Positions 8,181-26,912 of a stretch of DNA of 26,912 nt are shown here, piece after piece. The DNA comes from a virus. Numbering within the stretch: the stretch's first letter is position 1; each line of letters starts with the position of its first letter. The notes beneath the pieces are model-generated. The model was not told where the DNA came from, searched no databases, and was given only the letters and a program-made list of their open reading frames with translations. The stretch spans positions 1-26,912 of the IMG/VR virus record IMGVR_UViG_3300030061_003386. The stretch is one strand, 5' to 3'. A program made the position numbers and the translations under genes.

Positions 8181-9428
8181 CTAGATTCCTGAAGCAATAT
8201 CTCTAATCTTGGCTTGTGCTTTGAAGTTTCTACAAGTTGTTTCACCAAGCATATTATACAAAGCTCTATCTGTGAAAGCTTCGTTAATGAATGGATAACC
8301 TTGTTGTCGTTTTCCTGCTTCGTAATAAACAATTGGTTTGAGTATTTGCATACCTAACAATGGTTTGTTTGGAGCATTTTTATCTGCACTAGTGTTTAAG
8401 ATGAATAAGTCATCTACTGATCCCTCTGCTGATTGGGTGGTATCCTTTGAAGGAATGAATGGAAGTCCATATATTGTGGATATATGTAATCCTGCACCTG
8501 TTCCAGTAAAGGTATCAACACCGTTGACACCAACACTAAATTCTGTTCTTAAGTCGGCTGTGTTTTGGATACGGTAAGCGTTCATGTAGATTGATTGAAC
8601 TTCGGAGTATGTGTCCTGTCCACCAATCATTACAGTTGGCTCTTTTCCTGCGGCAATTCTAATATCTGCAAGTGTATCTCTCAATACTGCATCTGTTAAT
8701 ACATCTGCTGTACCGATTGTACCTGAAGGTGATTTTACCGTGGAATCCCAAGTACCTGCACCTGCATTTCTATCTACACCTGCACCGTTAGCACCCTTCC
8801 AAGGGTTATAAAGGTCGGTAAGATTTGCGTGTGCTTCGAATTGTTGTTCAGCGTGTGAAGCAACAATGACATCTAAAGATTCAAGATTTAATCTTTCAAG
8901 TGCGTTGGTTGCAACTACATCAGTAGGAATTGCAGTAAGCATTTGATTGACTCTTTCTTTGAATTGATCACTAGCATATACTCTTTGTTGTGCAAGAGAA
9001 CCGTAGTTATCATCTCTAGAATTGTCTACTAATTGTTCCAATAACTCAGAGGCTTCGAATACATATTGTAGAGTCTTTGGTTTTACAGTAATCTCTTGAA
9101 CTGCTGGTTTAATTGCACCAGCGATGGCTCCACCTTCAATAGTTCCACCTAATCCATCTCTTGCACCTGCGACAGATGCTAGATTTGGAGCTTTGGATTT
9201 GAAGATACGCCAACCAGAGAAATCCCAAACGTACTTTGGTAGAGCTGCGAATATGTTTGCTTCCATATTGAAGTTTGCCCATGCCATAGCACCGAATAGT
9301 GGGTTATAGTTGCCACCTGCACCGGGATCGGTTGTACTGAAACCTGCTTTTAAAATCTCGTCAGGAGTTCTGTTATAGGTATAATTGACAAGTTCATCAA
9401 TAGAACGTAGTCCTAGATAGGTAGACAT
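8181..9428 (-). CDS. HK97-fold major capsid protein (415 aa)
   Basis: Order (protease, scaffold candidate, this gene, connectors), size and content identify it. It begins MSTYLGLRSIDELVNYTYNR. The N-terminal arm is followed by an E-loop/P-domain-like region ('AIKPAVQEITVKPKTLQYVFEASELLEQLVDNSRDD'), then the spine-helix-like 'ASDQFKERVNQMLTAI'. An A-domain-like part ('TVMIGGQDTYSEVQSIYMNAYRI', 'ISTIYGLPFIPSKDT') comes before the C-terminus. Codon use is visibly less A+T-rich than in neighbouring genes, as expected for a highly expressed gene. It starts 1 nt after the stop of the scaffold candidate. The HK97 fold is inferred from pattern and context. Confidence 0.75.
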   Translation of the reverse strand: MSTYLGLRSIDELVNYTYNRTPDEILKAGFSTTDPGAGGNYNPLFGAMAWANFNMEANIFAALPKYVWDFSGWRIFKSKAPNLASVAGARDGLGGTIEGGAIAGAIKPAVQEITVKPKTLQYVFEASELLEQLVDNSRDDNYGSLAQQRVYASDQFKERVNQMLTAIPTDVVATNALERLNLESLDVIVASHAEQQFEAHANLTDLYNPWKGANGAGVDRNAGAGTWDSTVKSPSGTIGTADVLTDAVLRDTLADIRIAAGKEPTVMIGGQDTYSEVQSIYMNAYRIQNTADLRTEFSVGVNGVDTFTGTGAGLHISTIYGLPFIPSKDTTQSAEGSVDDLFILNTSADKNAPNKPLLGMQILKPIVYYEAGKRQQGYPFINEAFTDRALYNMLGETTCRNFKAQAKIRDIASGI

Positions 9429-9429
9429 T

Positions 9430-10095
9430 TTAGTATCCCCCCGGAAGTCCGTTACCGAACTCTCCTGATTCTAGTTTGTTATATGCTATAACTAATGCAT
9501 CTTCTGCACTTGAAGTTTTTCCATTCCAACCGCTAGAGATAGCTTTAAGGATTTGGTATCCTGTTGGAATTACTGCTTCTTCTTCCCCTCTTGATTTCAA
9601 AAGTGGTCTAACTGTCTTTACAATTTCGTATTCAGAACTTTCAGATTTTTTAACATCTTCTTTTTTGTCTTCATCGTGACCTTCTGTTTTCTCAACTTCC
9701 TCTTTATCTTCTTCTTTTTTGTCTTCACCATCGGCTTTACCCATAGTTAAACTAGGAGCATCGCTTTTTGGTTCTTCGCCTTTTTGTGGCTGGACAATAG
9801 AAGCTTGATCTTTTGGAGATGGTGCATAGGTATTTCCTAATTTGTCAGGATCACCGACATCGTTAGGACTTGATACAGCCGGAGCTTGAGTATCATCCTC
9901 TACACCTTGATCAACAGGATTCTTGTTGTGTTCTTTAATTAAAGCTTCAAGACCATCAAATCTTTTCTCAAAGGAATCGATTCTTGATTCTTGTGCTTTA
10001 ACTAATTGTGCAAGAATAGATGTGACAGAAGTGTCTTCATCTGCTTTTTGAACTTCAGAAACTTGTGTTTCTGTGGTTTGTTCTTCTGTAGTCAT
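9430..10095 (-). CDS. Acidic coiled-coil protein, scaffold candidate (221 aa)
   Basis: Sits between the prohead protease and the major capsid gene, the normal place for a scaffolding protein. The N-terminal third has a coiled coil ('ILAQLVKAQESRIDSFEKRFDGLEALIKEHN'). The middle is highly charged and low in complexity (Glu/Lys/Asp runs such as 'KKEEDKEEVEKTEGHDEDKKED'), and the C-terminus is more ordered ('VIPTGYQILKAISSG'). Scaffolds are typically helical, acidic and cleaved by the protease. A TATA-like ATTTATATAC at about 10118-10128 lies about 25 nt before the ATG. It could alternatively be a minor internal capsid protein. Confidence 0.55.
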   Translation of the reverse strand: MTTEEQTTETQVSEVQKADEDTSVTSILAQLVKAQESRIDSFEKRFDGLEALIKEHNKNPVDQGVEDDTQAPAVSSPNDVGDPDKLGNTYAPSPKDQASIVQPQKGEEPKSDAPSLTMGKADGEDKKEEDKEEVEKTEGHDEDKKEDVKKSESSEYEIVKTVRPLLKSRGEEEAVIPTGYQILKAISSGWNGKTSSAEDALVIAYNKLESGEFGNGLPGGY

Positions 10096-10162
10096 GTTGT
10101 AATTATTACAAATTTTTCATAGTATATAAATATAATTGTTAAAATTGAAAGGAATTATAAAC

Positions 10163-11443
10163 CTATTTTTTATATTTTTTATGTAATGATTTTAAATATT
10201 CTATAGTTTCTGCTTCTTCTAATGCTTCTTTTACATTTTTTACCCCAAATTTTAATATTAATTCAACAGGTGTATCAATTTTAGTAACATCTTTTACTCG
10301 TCTTTCACTTACCTCATGCACCATATTGCCTTCTACTTTTGATTGTTTTTTAGCACCTGCTAATGAACTTGGAGCTTCAAATTTATTTACATTGTCGTTT
10401 GAATCTGTCATTGTATTTGGTTTTTGTCTTGGTTGCATTGGGAACTCTCCTTTAGCGTTTATATCACCTATTGGTTGATCTTTTTCTATTTTCTTGTTTT
10501 TCTCTCTTGCTTCTTCTTCTACACTTTCAGGTGTGCTTGGTATATGGTCTTTTTTAACTTTAGCAGGTACTTTTGGAATACTGTTAATTAAATCATTTGT
10601 TTCTTTTGGACTTCCTGTGGCTTCCCCTACATTATCTGCTCTTGTTTCAGCAGCTCTATTAACTAAACTTTGATTGTTTAATTTTTCCACTTCTTCTGGT
10701 TTGTCAAATTGTTCTATTCCATGTTCTTCTTTAGATTTACCACATGATTTACATATATTTGAATCATCATCACAACTATACTGATGATTATCAATATCAA
10801 CATCTGTGTTAATATTTGATCCATTTGATTTATCCATAAACTGATCTACGTCAAATTTCTCAAATTTACAACCTAAACTAGTACATCTTATCTGTTCTCT
10901 GCCATTAAATTCTTTTACCATTTTTTCTATTCCATTTGCTTTAGCAAATTTGTTTACAGATTCTACTACTGCAAATGGGTTTGCTGGTGTATCACATAAT
11001 GCGATTTCATATAACTCTAATTTTCTTAATTCTAGTGCCATTTTGCCATCTTTTTGAATTGGTTCTCTTTCTTTACTTGCACCGCCCATAGATAGTCCTG
11101 AATATTCTCCTTTTACAACCTTATCCCAAACTTTGTCATATAATGTAATACCGTCTTTTTTATACACTTCGCCTGTAATTAGTACAGTTGCTACACCTTT
11201 GTATTCTGATTGTTCATAACTTAATACCTTACCTACCATTCTATTACTATGATAATCTGATATAACTGGATTTACTTCCATAAATGCTTCCATAATTTTC
11301 ATAACTTCTTTGACAAAAATAAACTCTTGTTGTCTATCTATGATTTCAGCAGTTATATGACCTTTGAATATTCTACGTTCATCTGCTGTATCAACTGTAA
11401 TTCCCTTTGTGATGAAATCAGGAAATTCAACATATTCTGTCAT
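10163..11443 (-). CDS. Prohead (capsid maturation) protease with long C-terminal extension (426 aa)
   Basis: Residues 1-160 match the HK97/herpes-type prohead serine protease. 'RIFKGHITAEIIDRQQEF' is the first strand pair. 'ISDYHSNRMVGKV' supplies the likely catalytic His65, 'YSGLSMGGAS' the likely nucleophile Ser118, and 'LRKLELYEIALCDTPANP' the family's closing strand motif. The remaining 260 or so residues are unusual. They contain Cys clusters at about 187-192 (CTSLGC) and in a 'YSCDDDSN-ICKSCGK' stretch, which may bind zinc, then charged disordered sequence and a C-terminal helix. The extension may act as a scaffold or targeting tail. A TATA-like TTTTTATATAC (about 11463-11473) precedes the start. 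Confidence 0.7.
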   Translation of the reverse strand: MTEYVEFPDFITKGITVDTADERRIFKGHITAEIIDRQQEFIFVKEVMKIMEAFMEVNPVISDYHSNRMVGKVLSYEQSEYKGVATVLITGEVYKKDGITLYDKVWDKVVKGEYSGLSMGGASKEREPIQKDGKMALELRKLELYEIALCDTPANPFAVVESVNKFAKANGIEKMVKEFNGREQIRCTSLGCKFEKFDVDQFMDKSNGSNINTDVDIDNHQYSCDDDSNICKSCGKSKEEHGIEQFDKPEEVEKLNNQSLVNRAAETRADNVGEATGSPKETNDLINSIPKVPAKVKKDHIPSTPESVEEEAREKNKKIEKDQPIGDINAKGEFPMQPRQKPNTMTDSNDNVNKFEAPSSLAGAKKQSKVEGNMVHEVSERRVKDVTKIDTPVELILKFGVKNVKEALEEAETIEYLKSLHKKYKK

Positions 11444-22177: not shown

Positions 22178-22327
22178 TTACCAATAACTTCCTTTATCAG
22201 AACAATCTAAATGGCTACCACAATTCGGACAGATCATGTGACAGGCGGTAAACTTGTTCATGGTAGTTTCGCACCGTGGACATACTATTTCCTTACAATC
22301 GTCACAGGTGTGGTATATCTTAGTCAT
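22178..22327 (-). CDS. Cysteine-rich zinc protein (49 aa), third of a minus-strand trio
   Basis: MTKIYHTCDDCKEIVCPRCE, then 'NKFTACHMICPNCGSHLDCSDKGSYW'. CDDC, CPRC and CPNC pairs plus two more Cys suggest two zinc sites. Its start overlaps the end of the upstream gene by 8 nt, so it is co-translated with it. The longer plus-strand frame over this region is a shadow. Confidence 0.65.
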   Translation of the reverse strand: MTKIYHTCDDCKEIVCPRCETTMNKFTACHMICPNCGSHLDCSDKGSYW

Positions 22328-22439
22328 GTTTCAAGTCTTCGACCACCCTGCATTTTAGGCATAATGTTGCACCCTCAATTAGTTCAGTTTTGCAGTTTGA
22401 TTCATAACACTTGTGGCAAAGCCCGATAAATGTTGTCAT
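22320..22439 (-). CDS. Micro zinc-ribbon protein (39 aa), second of the trio
   Basis: MTTFIGLCHKCYESNCKTEL, then 'GATLCLKCRVVEDLKHD'. CHKC and CLKC form a zinc ribbon. The ATG overlaps the previous stop as TAATG. Confidence 0.6.
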   Translation of the reverse strand: MTTFIGLCHKCYESNCKTELIEGATLCLKCRVVEDLKHD

Positions 22440-22594
22440 TACTTATTGCTATGATACTGTACTATTAAAAGTATTAGTGTGAGAAACTGACACCTAGAAC
22501 AATCGTCATATTCATATACTGTTTTACAATGAGAAAAGATCTTCTCTGTTAATATACTAGGATCGAACTCCCTTTTAAATGGATTTTCGAACAT
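22439..22594 (-). CDS. Small protein with CxxC motif (51 aa), first of the trio
   Basis: MFENPFKREFDPSILTEKIF followed by 'SHCKTVYEYDDCSRCQFLTLILLIVQYHSNK'. It has a CSRC pair plus one upstream Cys, and a hydrophobic stretch near the end that could be a membrane or core helix. An AATAAATTAA element around 22608-22618 lies upstream of the ATG. It starts the operon that ends at 22178. Confidence 0.5.
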   Translation of the reverse strand: MFENPFKREFDPSILTEKIFSHCKTVYEYDDCSRCQFLTLILLIVQYHSNK

Positions 22595-23109
22595 TTTTTT
22601 GCTACGTTAATTTATTACTTAAACATTACCCCCAATAGATTTATATATAAGTTTACTAGAAAATTATAATTTTTCATATATATACATTGATTTATAAATC
22701 TATTTTCCTTATTCCTAATCGGATATATGTGGATCTGAATGGCACTTCAATATAAGTGTTGCTCGTGGAAATTTGCTCGATCGTGCCTAATTTTGGTGCG
22801 ATCAAATATTTTGAGCGTGATATATCGTAAATTTCATGCGATCAGGCTATGCTAGGCACGAAATATTGTGATCGCTATGTCGATCATTGTCATATAGGCA
22901 CGATCGCATGTCATATAATTTTGGGCATTTTACCGTTTTGTGCCTGATCGTATGGATATTTTTTTGGTGATCATAGGGCATTGGGCGTGATCCCATATTG
23001 AGGGCTTTAAATAGTATATATGCTATTTGAATATTTTTTTGCTGTTTTTGTTAAAGTCTACATTTTCAGGCACGAAATATGCAGATCGTAGCATTATGAA
23101 AATTTTTTC

Positions 23110-23171
23110 TTAGAACTAGTGATATATTTTAACACTAGATTTAGAACTAGTGATATATATTGGCACTAGAT
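23110..23171. repeat. 31-bp tandem duplication with internal inverted repeat
   Basis: Units 23110-23140 and 23141-23171 are identical at 28 of 31 positions. Each contains CTAGTG and CACTAG as an inverted pair about 11-12 nt apart, so each unit looks like a dimeric protein-binding site. Confidence 0.75.
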
Positions 23172-23593
23172 ATAATTTTTTTTGGGATTGTTTTTGCAAA
23201 AAATTTAGGGTTTAAATTACCCTTTAACATAACATTCCTATCAAATAGATTTTTTTAGAAATACAAAACATATTTATAATCATTTTTTGGCTGATCCTAG
23301 ATCGCATGGATTAGGCGTAACAGATTTTAGATTTACAAACCTTTATTAAGGGTGTATTTGCCCGATCCTAGAGGTAAATTTTGTTAAACCATTTTGTCAA
23401 TATTTTTGATATATTTTAGATCATGAGCTTTAATTTTATTATAAATCAACGGTTTATATTATGTATCATATTTCTATAATAGTTTATTCTAAATTTTTAT
23501 GTTTTTCTTAGTGGTATTTTATCAATTATTTTTACCCCAAAAATCAATTATAATCAATATATTGTATTATGATATATTTTACAAATAGAGATT

Positions 23594-23701
23594 ATGCAAA
23601 AATACACAAAAGCAGAAATTGCATTAATTGATCGTTTTACCTTTGATCAATATATGGATTTTTGCGAATATTTAGTAAAACAAATTGAGTCTAAAATTTA
23701 G
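23594..23701 (+). CDS. Microprotein inside the repeat region (35 aa)
   Basis: MQKYTKAEIALIDRFTFDQY followed by 'MDFCEYLVKQIESKI'; helical. A GATATATTTT box (23571-23580) is about 20 nt upstream of the ATG, and a T-rich terminator follows the stop. It is the only credible coding unit in the 1.6-kb region. Function unknown. Confidence 0.5.
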   Translation: MQKYTKAEIALIDRFTFDQYMDFCEYLVKQIESKI

Positions 23702-23704
23702 ACT

Positions 23705-23736
23705 TTATTTTTTCTTTTTTTCTTATCTTATTTTTT
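23705..23736 (+). terminator. T-rich terminator after the 35-aa gene
   Basis: Three T-runs separated by single C or A interruptions begin 4 nt after the stop codon. Confidence 0.55.
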
Positions 23737-24222
23737 GCAAAAATTCCCAAAAAATAATTATAAATCTGTAGGCGTGAAAATTTAGTCTCACTAAATGATT
23801 TATAATAAAATTAAGTAATACTACTTTTATTGAATTAAGCATGGTATTCATGGTTAAATTATGCTCTAAAAGCGATCAAATCCTTAAAAAAAATACAAAA
23901 GAATTATATATCAACAAAACAAGGGGTTAAAACTTCTAGGCACAAAATTTAAAAAATAATTATAATAAAATCAAAAAAATCGATAATCTGATCCATGCTT
24001 TGAAGATTTATAAATGGCTTTAACTTAACATTCCTAACAAAATTATATTATGAAATAGATCGCTTTTTTCTTTTGTGAACTTTAGAATTTTTAATTATAT
24101 GAAAATAATATAATTTTAAAATTATCCCCGAATTGGATCAAAAATTCACGCCTGATATATTTTATTTAGGCACAAAATGGATCTAAGAAATATATATTAA
24201 CTAGATATATAATTAATTTGAT

Positions 24223-25473
24223 ATGAGTCAATCACAAAACATACAAAAATTCAGTATGAAAAATGTTAGTGATTATTTAGTTTCTAAAGGTTACACACCA
24301 GAAACCAAAAAATCACAATACAGCGTTTTAGCTGAATTATATGATATGGTTGTTATTCGTGGAATTGAAGAAAATTTCAATACTATGATACAACGATTGA
24401 ATATAGGAAAATCTTTGAAAAATTGTCAAACTAGACAAAGTATTATCAAAAATTTTCTTATCTATCAAAGTGGATTATCCACAAACCCCGCCCAAATTTC
24501 CCAAAATGGCAGTAAATCTTTTGAGGATACAAAAAAAGAATTTTTAGAGAATTTGCTAAAATTCGTTAGACAACTACACAAAGAGCAAAAAATGAATAAC
24601 TGTAACAAGTTAGTTAGTTTTTACACTCGTGAAGGTAAACAATTAGCAGATTACTTTGGATACATTCCAGAAAAAACCCTTTTAGAAACGATTCCGGCAA
24701 GATTCAACAAAAAAGAATCTGATTCTAAATTCGTTTCAGAATTGGTAAAACAATTTTTCCCAAATCCAGAAAGCAAAAAAACATGGTTAGATCTACCACA
24801 AAAAGGAGAATTTTTGAACTTTGTTAAAAAGTCAAATCCAAACATGGTTTTAATGTCTAAAGCTGACATTTTAACACAATTCCCAGATATTGATCCAATT
24901 TGCTTAAATCCAGAATTGGCAATTCCAAAAAAGGATCCAAAATACACATGGCTAGAAGGTGAAAGAGATATGATCACTGCTTCAATGCTTTTGAATGAAT
25001 CTCTATTCATTACAGGCGTGGCAGGAATTGGCAAAAGTTCTATGTTAGCCCAATGGTGTTATGAAGAATCATGCCCCTATGTGAGAACTAGTTGTAATTA
25101 TTCAGCAGATCCGCAAGACAACTACTTTAAGCAAAGCTTCAACGGTCAAAAAGTCCAATACAAAATGATCAACATGGGATTAAGTTTCATGTTTGCAAAT
25201 ATGATCGGAATTGTTTTGAATAGTCAAGAAGAAATTAATTCTTCTAATGAAGCAACAATGATTTCAATGCATAGTGCCACGGATTCAATAAAATCTCTAG
25301 ATACTGAAATCGGCAATTTATCCCTTAATGAAGGTTGTAAAATGCTAATCGCAGGATCTGGAAATATTGGTTATGGTCAAGGGGATTTAACACCTGCTTT
25401 GCAAAGTCGATTAATGCCTTTTGACAAAAAAGAACCAAGCGATCGATTTATTTTAGAAAATATTTGGACTTAA
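24223..25473 (+). CDS. CobS/MoxR-like AAA+ ATPase with helical N-terminal domain (416 aa)
   Basis: Residues 250-416 form an AAA+ module of the CobS/MoxR type. Walker A is GVAGIGKS (265-272), followed by 'VRTSCNYSADPQDNYF', and sensor-1-like 'LIAGSGN' (375-381) and 'ALQSRLMPF' (392-400) with the likely Arg finger. The Walker B position is unusual: 'IGIVLNSQEEINS' (328-340) has Glu-Glu where Asp-Glu is normal. The protein ends soon after the Arg, so the C-terminal lid is missing or very short. Residues 10-85 are helical and vaguely like the core-binding domain of tyrosine recombinases. CobS-like ATPases occur in tailed viruses of marine Thaumarchaeota and in cyanophages. MoxR-type ATPases usually work with a VWA protein, and one follows at 25726. 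Confidence 0.7.
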   Translation: MSQSQNIQKFSMKNVSDYLVSKGYTPETKKSQYSVLAELYDMVVIRGIEENFNTMIQRLNIGKSLKNCQTRQSIIKNFLIYQSGLSTNPAQISQNGSKSFEDTKKEFLENLLKFVRQLHKEQKMNNCNKLVSFYTREGKQLADYFGYIPEKTLLETIPARFNKKESDSKFVSELVKQFFPNPESKKTWLDLPQKGEFLNFVKKSNPNMVLMSKADILTQFPDIDPICLNPELAIPKKDPKYTWLEGERDMITASMLLNESLFITGVAGIGKSSMLAQWCYEESCPYVRTSCNYSADPQDNYFKQSFNGQKVQYKMINMGLSFMFANMIGIVLNSQEEINSSNEATMISMHSATDSIKSLDTEIGNLSLNEGCKMLIAGSGNIGYGQGDLTPALQSRLMPFDKKEPSDRFILENIWT

Positions 25474-25495
25474 AAAATCCATATATTTTTTAAAA

Positions 25496-25520
25496 TATTT
25501 TTTTATTTTTTATTTTTTTC
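25496..25520 (+). terminator. T-rich terminator after the AAA+ gene
   Basis: Runs of T with single A interruptions begin about 22 nt after the stop codon, giving a typical archaeal termination zone before the next promoter. Confidence 0.5.
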
Positions 25521-25581
25521 AAGTTTTAATTTTTCATATAATTTTTTTCATATAATTTTTAAAAAATTCCCAAATTTGGGA

Positions 25582-25599
25582 GATAAAAAAGATTTATAA
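25582..25599 (+). promoter_or_regulatory. Promoter element, first of two identical 18-bp copies
   Basis: GATAAAAAAGATTTATAA here is repeated exactly at 25686-25703. The second copy lies 23 nt before the VWA gene start and is clearly its TATA region. This copy would start transcription near 25622, where no ORF begins. It follows the palindrome CCCAAATTTGGG at 25569-25580. Confidence 0.6.
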
Positions 25600-25620
25600 G
25601 TAGTAAAGATCCTCTATAAA

Positions 25621-25676
25621 GTTTGGTCAAAAATTCCGATCAAGGAAAATTGAAAAAAAAATTGCGTTTTTTTTCT
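25621..25676 (+). ncRNA. Candidate small RNA between the AAA+ and VWA genes
   Basis: It begins about 22 nt downstream of the promoter copy at 25582-25599 and ends in an 8-T run (25667-25674). TTGGTC (25623-25628) and GATCAA (25638-25643) can pair (one G-T) around a 9-nt loop. The unit has its own promoter and terminator but no reading frame of useful length. It may regulate the downstream VWA gene. Confidence 0.45.
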
Positions 25677-25685
25677 AAGTCCACG

Positions 25686-25703
25686 GATAAAAAAGATTTA
25701 TAA
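25686..25703 (+). promoter_or_regulatory. Promoter of the VWA gene (second 18-bp copy)
   Basis: GATAAAAAAGATTTATAA ends 22 nt before the ATG at 25726, placing the TATA box about 26 nt from the start codon and predicting a leaderless mRNA. Confidence 0.7.
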
Positions 25704-25725
25704 ACAAAGCATTGGTAATTCTAGC

Positions 25726-26595
25726 ATGGTAGAAATTCAAAATAACAAATCAGCATTAGGATCTTTTGATCGCTATGTGTTAAATGAAGTATCAGCTGAT
25801 TATGTTAGAAGATATGTTAATCCTGAAAATCGTTATGAAATTAACCAAAAAAGAATAAATGATTTTGATCAGGTTTTAGAGGAATTAAAAGGAGATCCTA
25901 AATTTTTAAGATCCAATGTTGGTGATCTTCATATTCCTCATGTTGTAGATTTTAAAGCAAATAAAACAAATTTGAAAGTTTTTAGAAAAACTTTGATTCA
26001 ACAAAGCGGTTTAGTTATTTTATTAATTGACGTTAGCGGATCAATGAACGGTTTTAAAATTGATACTGTTAGAAATTTAGTTGCTGATTTAATGACTAGT
26101 GCTGAAAATATCCCAAAAATAGAATTAAGGGTTTTCTGCTATGCGGGTGATTGTTATTATGATTATGATAACTTAAAAGACAATGGAGATCCTACAACGG
26201 AAGATCTTTTATTAATTCATGAGATCGAAAAAGTCGAGGATTGTGATTTAATTACTCCTTTAGGAACTACACCTACTGACAAAGCTATTCACTATTTGAT
26301 TAACAAATTTGAAGAATCCCATAAAAATAAAACTTTGTTGGTTTTAACTGATGGATCTCCTTCTAGTTATACAGTATCTTACCAAAGAGCATTATTAGAA
26401 GTTAAGAAAGTTTTGATAAAAGCAGAATCTGCAAAGTTTAATATTTTTGGTTGTGGTTTTTGTGTAAGTGATTATTTAGACAAAGCTATGGAAAATTCAT
26501 TTAGAGGAAATTATATCAACTTGTGGACTAGTCAAGATATTGAAAAATATTTATTTTCAGCATTAGAGGACTTTGTAAGGAGTATTAAAAATTGA
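25726..26595 (+). CDS. von Willebrand factor A (VWA) domain protein with intact MIDAS (289 aa)
   Basis: The VWA domain (about 94-285) binds a divalent metal through MIDAS: D102-x-S104-x-S106 in 'LIDVSGSMNG', a Thr in 'PLGTTPTDKA' (about 181-182), and D209 in 'VLTDGSPSS'. All key residues are present. Residues 1-90 are helical and charged and probably bind a partner. In MoxR/CobS-type systems the VWA protein presents the substrate to the AAA+ ring, and the ATPase gene lies just upstream here. CobT joins an acidic segment to its VWA domain. Here the acidic Ser-Glu protein is a separate gene that starts at a TTG overlapping this stop codon (TTGA). The target of the system is unknown. Confidence 0.75.
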   Translation: MVEIQNNKSALGSFDRYVLNEVSADYVRRYVNPENRYEINQKRINDFDQVLEELKGDPKFLRSNVGDLHIPHVVDFKANKTNLKVFRKTLIQQSGLVILLIDVSGSMNGFKIDTVRNLVADLMTSAENIPKIELRVFCYAGDCYYDYDNLKDNGDPTTEDLLLIHEIEKVEDCDLITPLGTTPTDKAIHYLINKFEESHKNKTLLVLTDGSPSSYTVSYQRALLEVKKVLIKAESAKFNIFGCGFCVSDYLDKAMENSFRGNYINLWTSQDIEKYLFSALEDFVRSIKN

Positions 26596-26912
26596 CAGAA
26601 AACATACCACAAGGATTCACAAAAGAAAGTTTAGAAGAACTTAAACAAACTGATCCTGAATTTTATAATATACTTATGCAAGATTTTAAAACAGAAAATT
26701 CAGGATCTGGAAAATCTGATATTAAAGGCGATCTTGATATTGCAGAAAATATATCAGAAAATATATCAGAATCAGAATCAGAATCAGAATCAGAATTATA
26801 TGAATCTGAAATATATGAAGTATCTGAATCAGAATCAGAATCAGAATCAGAATCAGAATCAGAATCAGAATCAGAATCAGAATCAGAATCAGAATCAGAA
26901 TCAGAATCAGAA
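26592..26912 (+). CDS. Acidic Ser-Glu repeat protein, 5' part only (at least 107 aa)
   Basis: The frame opens after an in-frame TAA at 26586, and the first possible start is TTG at 26592, overlapping the VWA stop (TTGA). The N-terminus reads MTENIPQGFTKESLEELKQT if the TTG is read as Met; a charged stretch follows, then Ser-Glu repeats encoded by TCAGAA units. The frame is still open at the window edge, so its length and C-terminus are unknown. It is co-translated with the VWA gene and may be its acidic partner or extension. Confidence 0.6.
   Translation, partial: MTENIPQGFTKESLEELKQTDPEFYNILMQDFKTENSGSGKSDIKGDLDIAENISENISESESESESELYESEIYEVSESESESESESESESESESESESESESESE
26766..26795 (+). repeat. 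Tandem hexanucleotide TCAGAA, 5 copies
   Basis: Five exact copies encoding Ser-Glu, separated from the longer tract by a short non-repeat stretch encoding LYESEIYEV. Confidence 0.85.
26829..26912 (+). repeat. Tandem hexanucleotide TCAGAA, at least 14 copies, reaching the window edge
   Basis: Fourteen exact copies in frame with the Ser-Glu coding sequence, continuing to the last base. Such tracts change length by slippage and also break short-read assemblies, which may be why the sequence ends here. Confidence 0.9.

Follow-up and report, generated by a model that had tools for sequence, protein, structure and literature searches.

The replication origin of a marine archaeal virus could be built from repeated copies of one half of the origin recognition box (ORB) of its host, as our analysis suggests. 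The window, i.e. the whole stretch of DNA analysed here, is an IMG/VR virus record of 26,912 bases. Based on sequence comparisons, we give about an even chance (roughly 0.5) to the reading that a tailed virus of marine Thaumarchaeota starts its replication in the 1.8-kb intergenic region of Table 1, with its half-ORB sites drawing the host Orc1/Cdc6 or some other host origin protein. The original prediction had proposed a candidate origin here, possibly of a new type. The proposal gains from the recurrence of the cluster in related viruses and from the word it has in common with the host origin, but the GC skew gives no start signal. The suggestion of a new type has to be modified, as the virus shares the word with the chromosomal origin of its host, in which word and ORB are fused.

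The region is highly enriched in one short word. Seven AGGCAC and three AGGCGT motifs lie irregularly spaced between 22,783 and 24,173, seven of them on the plus and three on the minus strand, in agreement with the roughly ten copies in both orientations that had been predicted. We counted 10 occurrences of YAGGCRY in 22,430-24,222, whereas 500 dinucleotide shuffles averaged 0.60 and never exceeded 4. The extended pattern YAGGC(AC/GT/AT)RA is found 10 times inside the region and only once in the remaining 25.1 kb (P about 1e-18), and its R at +7 and A at +8 are positions that were not used in choosing the word.

Table 1. Features of the candidate origin region and its surroundings in the window.
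Feature	Position	Strand
Candidate origin region, 1.8-kb intergenic, small early genes on one side and the AAA+ gene on the other	22430..24222	
Outlying site TAGGCATAA, just left of the region	22356..22364	+
Half-ORB-like site TAGGCAC(GATCG)	22783..22789	-
Half-ORB-like site TAGGCAC(GAAAT)	22853..22859	+
Half-ORB-like site TAGGCAC(GATCGC)	22895..22901	+
Half-ORB-like site CAGGCAC(AAAAC)	22940..22946	-
Half-ORB-like site CAGGCAC(GAAAT)	23067..23073	+
Two 31-bp tandem copies, 90% identical, each with a CTAGTG...CACTAG dyad (read by eye)	23110..23171	
Element of ~58 bp, matching three tandem copies (~82%) in the relative G007 (L022)	23247..23304	
Half-ORB-like site TAGGCGT(AACAG)	23312..23318	+
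A+T-richest stretch of the window, candidate unwinding zone	23376..23750	
Micro-ORF of 35 codons, MQKYTKAEIALIDRFTFDQYMDFCEYLVKQIESKI; counterpart at the same place in G007	23594..23701	+
Half-ORB-like site TAGGCGT(GAAAA); TAGGCGTGAA is the host ORB half	23769..23775	+
Half-ORB-like site TAGGCAC(AAAAT)	23937..23943	+
Half-ORB-like site CAGGCGT(GAATT); CAGGCGTGAA is the host ORB half	24148..24154	-
Half-ORB-like site TAGGCAC(AAAAT); TATA-like stretch ~22 bp on, upstream of the AAA+ gene	24167..24173	+
Neighbouring small AAA+ protein, weak match to the CobS-like phrog_249; G007 counterpart is AAA_5	24223..25473	+
Neighbouring VWA-domain protein (PF00092)	25726..26595	+

The A+T-rich body and the tandem repeats with dyad symmetry, both part of the original prediction, are found in the region: GC content drops to 19.3%, its lowest value in the window, in the 300 bp that start at 23,401, inside the cluster, and a 31-bp unit occurs twice at 23,110-23,171. 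The region had also been called almost gene-free, which is right for ORFs of at least 60 aa and wrong for a conserved ORF of 35 codons at 23,594-23,701, so the region is not wholly devoid of genes. The counterpart of this micro-ORF in G007 (L022 2,411-2,515, minus strand; 34-35 aa) has with it the common motif FDQYM...QIExKI, and the differences between the two viruses by codon position are 16/10/20 over 35 codons, a pattern that may be taken as a weak sign of coding. No counterpart was seen in other distinct viruses, whose loci were scanned with one regular expression. Small zinc-ribbon genes ending in CGSxLDCSDKGxxW, as read by eye, border the region at 22,184-22,327 (minus strand) in the window, at ~4,783-4,910 in L022 and at 110-246 in L016.

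The window probably represents a tailed virus of marine ammonia-oxidising archaea (Nitrosopumilales), with the host inferred from the sequence. It has matches to a portal, a prohead protease, a major head protein and a tail protein, and the portal is closest to those of haloarchaeal tailed viruses of the HCTV-1/HVTV-1 type (21-26% identity). A viral RadA (PF08423) is also encoded. We scanned one genome per bacterial or archaeal species with two peptide patterns from the alignment of this RadA and those of its viral relatives, and all 44 of the 44 confirmed loci have titles of Thaumarchaeota or Nitrosopumilales type. The restriction of these matches to Thaumarchaeota is the reason for the host assignment. 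A serine-glutamate repeat gene lies at 26,670-26,912 of the window and at 15,760-15,887 of L038, and both the window and the contig G008 stop there; this stop is probably an assembly break, and the two contigs are complementary.

The cluster recurs in divergent relatives of the window. The portal scan gave 23 loci, and the contigs spanning the place are the window (plus the near-identical G001), G005, G006 and G007, with the more distant RadA contigs L055-L058 left out. All four of these divergent viruses have the cluster. The numbers of YAGGCRY copies within 1.2-1.8 kb are 10, 15, 13 and 10 for the window, G005, G006 and G007, respectively, while 0.5-0.9 are expected from the rest of each contig. 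For YAGGC(AC/GT/AT)RA the counts inside and outside the region are 10 and 1, 10 and 1, 7 and 12, and 8 and 7 in the same order, with P between 1e-8 and 1e-18. The position of the cluster is kept as well, 8-13 kb from the portal on the RadA side, and the downstream genes vary, being AAA+ and VWA genes in the window and G007, and genes for a 130-aa protein and a GATase-like protein in G006. The 55.9-kb contig G008 has no cluster. We rejected it as a counter-example, because it does not include this segment: one of its ends is the serine-glutamate repeat of the window and the other stops before the region.

The individual viruses differ in the details of the region. G006 has an iteron-like array of eight TAGGCGTTATATAAG-like units, spaced by 20-23 bp as judged by eye, where TRF reports a period of 65 and 2.8 copies. 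The cluster contains the GC minimum of the window; in G006 a second place reaches the same value, and in G005 and G007 the minimum is not in the cluster. G007 has two copies of a module of ~200 bp that contains sites and a TATA-like GATTTATATTA, one ahead of the AAA+ gene and one ahead of the VWA gene; these promoter-like copies are at ~160-420 and 1,970-2,240 of L022 (minus strand). A second word, GATCGC/TGATCGC, is enriched in all four viral regions. It may be a second origin element common to host and virus, but the host CGATCA lies mostly near the cdc6 start and away from the ORBs.

A motif-only scan added one more, distantly related virus. We searched 2.9 million viral contigs of IMG/VR for three TAGGCRYRA words with short gaps, a stricter pattern which the window itself fails, and 94 stretches matched. 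These and L257, which is G006 itself, were screened for a portal (95 loci), and L178 was the only one besides L257 to have it, at 38% identity to the portal of the window. L178 has five sites and eight of its nine GATCGC copies in ~250 bp, 2 kb upstream of its portal, the eight GATCGC copies lying within 201-392. The search of related contigs, suggested with the original prediction as a check, has hence come out in its favour, with enrichment in four of the four spanning viruses and in one more that was retrieved through the motif and nothing else. A handful of the other contigs of the scan were viewed, and these were coding repeats, simple repeats or unrelated arrays. A search with the G006-type pattern matched G006 itself only, and none of 201 genomes of the host order has the dense triple pattern. 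Another virus has an array of TAGGCATGATTGTCTTTTAT units at L211 7,629-7,900, with similar ones in L199 and L237; this array is a separate iteron-like case. L199 also encodes a zinc-finger primase-like protein, as read by eye.

In its 3' half, the ORB of Nitrosopumilales is identical to the viral word TAGGCRYRA. We sought Orc1/Cdc6 (TIGR02928) in ten host genomes, eight of which scored above the cut-off, and examined the loci L113-L120. Upstream of cdc6 in the Nitrosopumilales loci we found ACCCCTTTATTTCCASTC-YAGGCGTGAA, i.e. TAGGCGTGAA fused to the ORB, so that the host box has a TTTCCASTC half with a C-run and a AGGCGTGAA half. Its first part reads GASTGGAAAT..AAGGGGT on the opposite strand, and the ORB patterns printed in PMC4164010 resemble it. 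The 51 viral sites give the consensus TAGGC(A/G)(C/T)(G/A)A. Although neither +7 nor +8 had been selected for, 56% of the sites have G and 25% have A at +7, and 84% have A at +8. Eleven of the 15 ORB cores near cdc6 in the eight loci continue into YAGGCRT, an unselected count from which three further regular-expression matches away from ORBs were dropped; neither of the two cores of L119 does so. We found 30 matches of the combined pattern TTTCCANTCYAGGCRT, which are spread over 21 of 38 genomes with no more than two in any one; the reversed control gave none. AGGCGTG also occurs without an ORB core in the third conserved element of several host origins. Several host origins have a further element, CAGGCGTGGGCTAGGCAGTCAATGTTAACAA, ~65 bp away and likewise without an ORB core.

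An unbiased ranking of 6-mers points the same way, with 6 of the top 20 common to host origins and viral regions, and the P value of 1e-8 for this overlap is too small, as 6-mers overlap and the hosts are related. The word is not specific to origins in the hosts. Each of 10 genomes has 15-33 copies of YAGGCRTRAA; each of eight has 1-8 copies of YAGGCGTGAA, and in four of these eight it is found at the cdc6 origin. Nothing is conserved upstream of the 51 aligned viral sites, where the host consensus ACCCC..TTTCCACTC is absent. Since the viral sites miss the canonical ORB half, i.e. the TTTCCASTC core with its C-run, binding by Orc1/Cdc6 is not assured.

The viruses seem to rely on a host protein for starting replication. 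TIGR02928 has no match in any of the seven related viral records to which that search was confined, the window, a fragment, being outside it. The neighbouring AAA+ and VWA proteins do not match any initiator family, the former has no Pfam match, and no dedicated Rep is nearby; the original prediction was correct in stating that no known initiator adjoins the region. The adjacent AAA+ protein was considered as an initiator, and this role is neither supported nor excluded by its weak CobS-like PHROG match and its AlphaFold model with a mean pLDDT of 33.9. G006 carries the cluster without an AAA+ gene at that place. As the word is common to the virus and the host chromosomal origin, the factor acting in trans is likely to be a host protein.

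A fused PrimPol-MCM is encoded in G006 (23,473-25,911) and G007 (8,614-11,037), with an aligned homologue in G008 (40,643-43,075). According to PMC12141716, Orc1-1 with bound ATP needs no other protein to bring MCM to the origin DNA of Sulfolobus, which makes a short series of steps the simplest model for the virus. The host Orc1/Cdc6, or another host protein reading this ORB half, would bind the repeated viral sites; the A+T-rich body would then open; and the opened site would be passed to the viral PrimPol-MCM helicase-primase, which would load and start replication. A passage in PMC6563490 describes integrated elements of Thaumarchaeota that carry MCM or Orc1 homologues and presumably recruit the cellular replisome. 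We dropped the argument that a winged-helix tail on the viral MCM contacts Orc1, as the phmmer matches of its last 88 residues were all EF-hand-like and due to chance. The cumulative GC skew, originally proposed as a check, has its turns at switches in gene direction and none at the cluster, in the window as in G006 and G007. It tracks the gene direction in G008 as in these three, and hence we rejected it as an uninformative origin signal.

It is possible, though rather doubtful, that the viruses practise origin mimicry in full. A lineage without an initiator gene would have an origin of 10-15 half-ORB copies that outcompetes the two ORBs of the host, would start with its own PrimPol-MCM, and might even starve the host origin. 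If the origin reading is true, we would know where uncultured viruses of the ammonia oxidisers that abound in the sea have an origin, and a virus could recruit the origin machinery of an archaeal host by copying half of its recognition box. The finding also highlights the conserved half of the Nitrosopumilales ORB, and which protein reads that half is directly testable. We found no description of such a viral region in a search of the open-access literature, and a prior description is possible.

The sites may have functions other than starting replication. They could be operators, with YAGGCRYRA bound by a regulator, of the virus or of the host, that activates the operon downstream, in a region which is no origin. 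The duplicated G007 module argues for such a role in transcription, the sites in G005 and G006 often run into TATATAAG, and in both the window and G006 the next gene is preceded by a TATA-like stretch that has one site ~22 bp ahead of it, as judged by eye. We consider control of transcription without an origin unlikely, however, as the motif is nearly confined to one region (10 of 11 in the window and 10 of 11 in G005) rather than spread over promoters, the cluster stays while the genes downstream of it vary between viruses, at least 10 sites over 1-1.8 kb are many for one promoter, and the match with the host ORB is left unexplained. Use as an origin and use as a promoter are compatible and can coexist.

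The same excess of sites, 10-15 copies of the half-ORB word per viral region versus at most two matches of the ORB pattern per host genome, would also suit a titration of the host initiator that halts host replication while the virus starts elsewhere, e.g. by recombination through the RadA it encodes itself. Such a sink would have no need for an A+T-rich body, a kept position or an iteron-like array, and it is compatible with an origin; we regard it as improbable. Dense short noncoding repeats are also typical of packaging (pac) and partition sites, and a pac or centromere-like site read by a viral protein would account for them. We give very little credit to this idea, as no ParA/ParB-like or terminase match was found among the neighbouring proteins tested and it gives no reason for the identity with the host ORB half. 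The reading as an origin, with host protein bound to the half-ORB sites, is the one we prefer.

The candidate origin resembles several known systems in part. Iteron origins of plasmids and viruses consist of clustered short direct and inverted repeats beside A+T-rich DNA. The viral regions likewise have clustered short repeats beyond chance, with the G006 array spaced at 20-23 bp, but differ in having no adjacent Rep, a word common to the host origin and, in the window, an irregular spacing. Marine thaumarchaeal tailed viruses and the Druskaviridae of haloarchaea are also comparable, as the portal of the window matches portals of the HCTV-1/HVTV-1 type and its AAA+/VWA pair resembles the CobS/CobT pair of PMC8651126, whereas here the host is inferred to be Nitrosopumilales and the 6.9-kb right end of the window matches no phage record. 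Passages of PMC12141716 also describe the ucm of Sulfolobus origins, which is bound by UBP, a recent acquisition of Desulfurococcales and Sulfolobales. Like the word studied here, the ucm described there is short, conserved and found at origins in addition to the core that the initiator binds; it lies between the ORBs, whereas our word forms one piece with the ORB in the host and occurs by itself in the virus.

The closest comparison is with the archaeal Orc1/Cdc6-ORB origins. The virus differs from them in having no canonical ORB half, in its 10-15 sites instead of two or three, and in that no orc1/cdc6 was found, while an Orc1/Cdc6-ORB origin has the orc1/cdc6 gene in the replicon and usually adjacent. 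As in these origins, the sites of the window recur in either orientation about an A+T-rich zone, and the viral word is the 3' half of the ORB.
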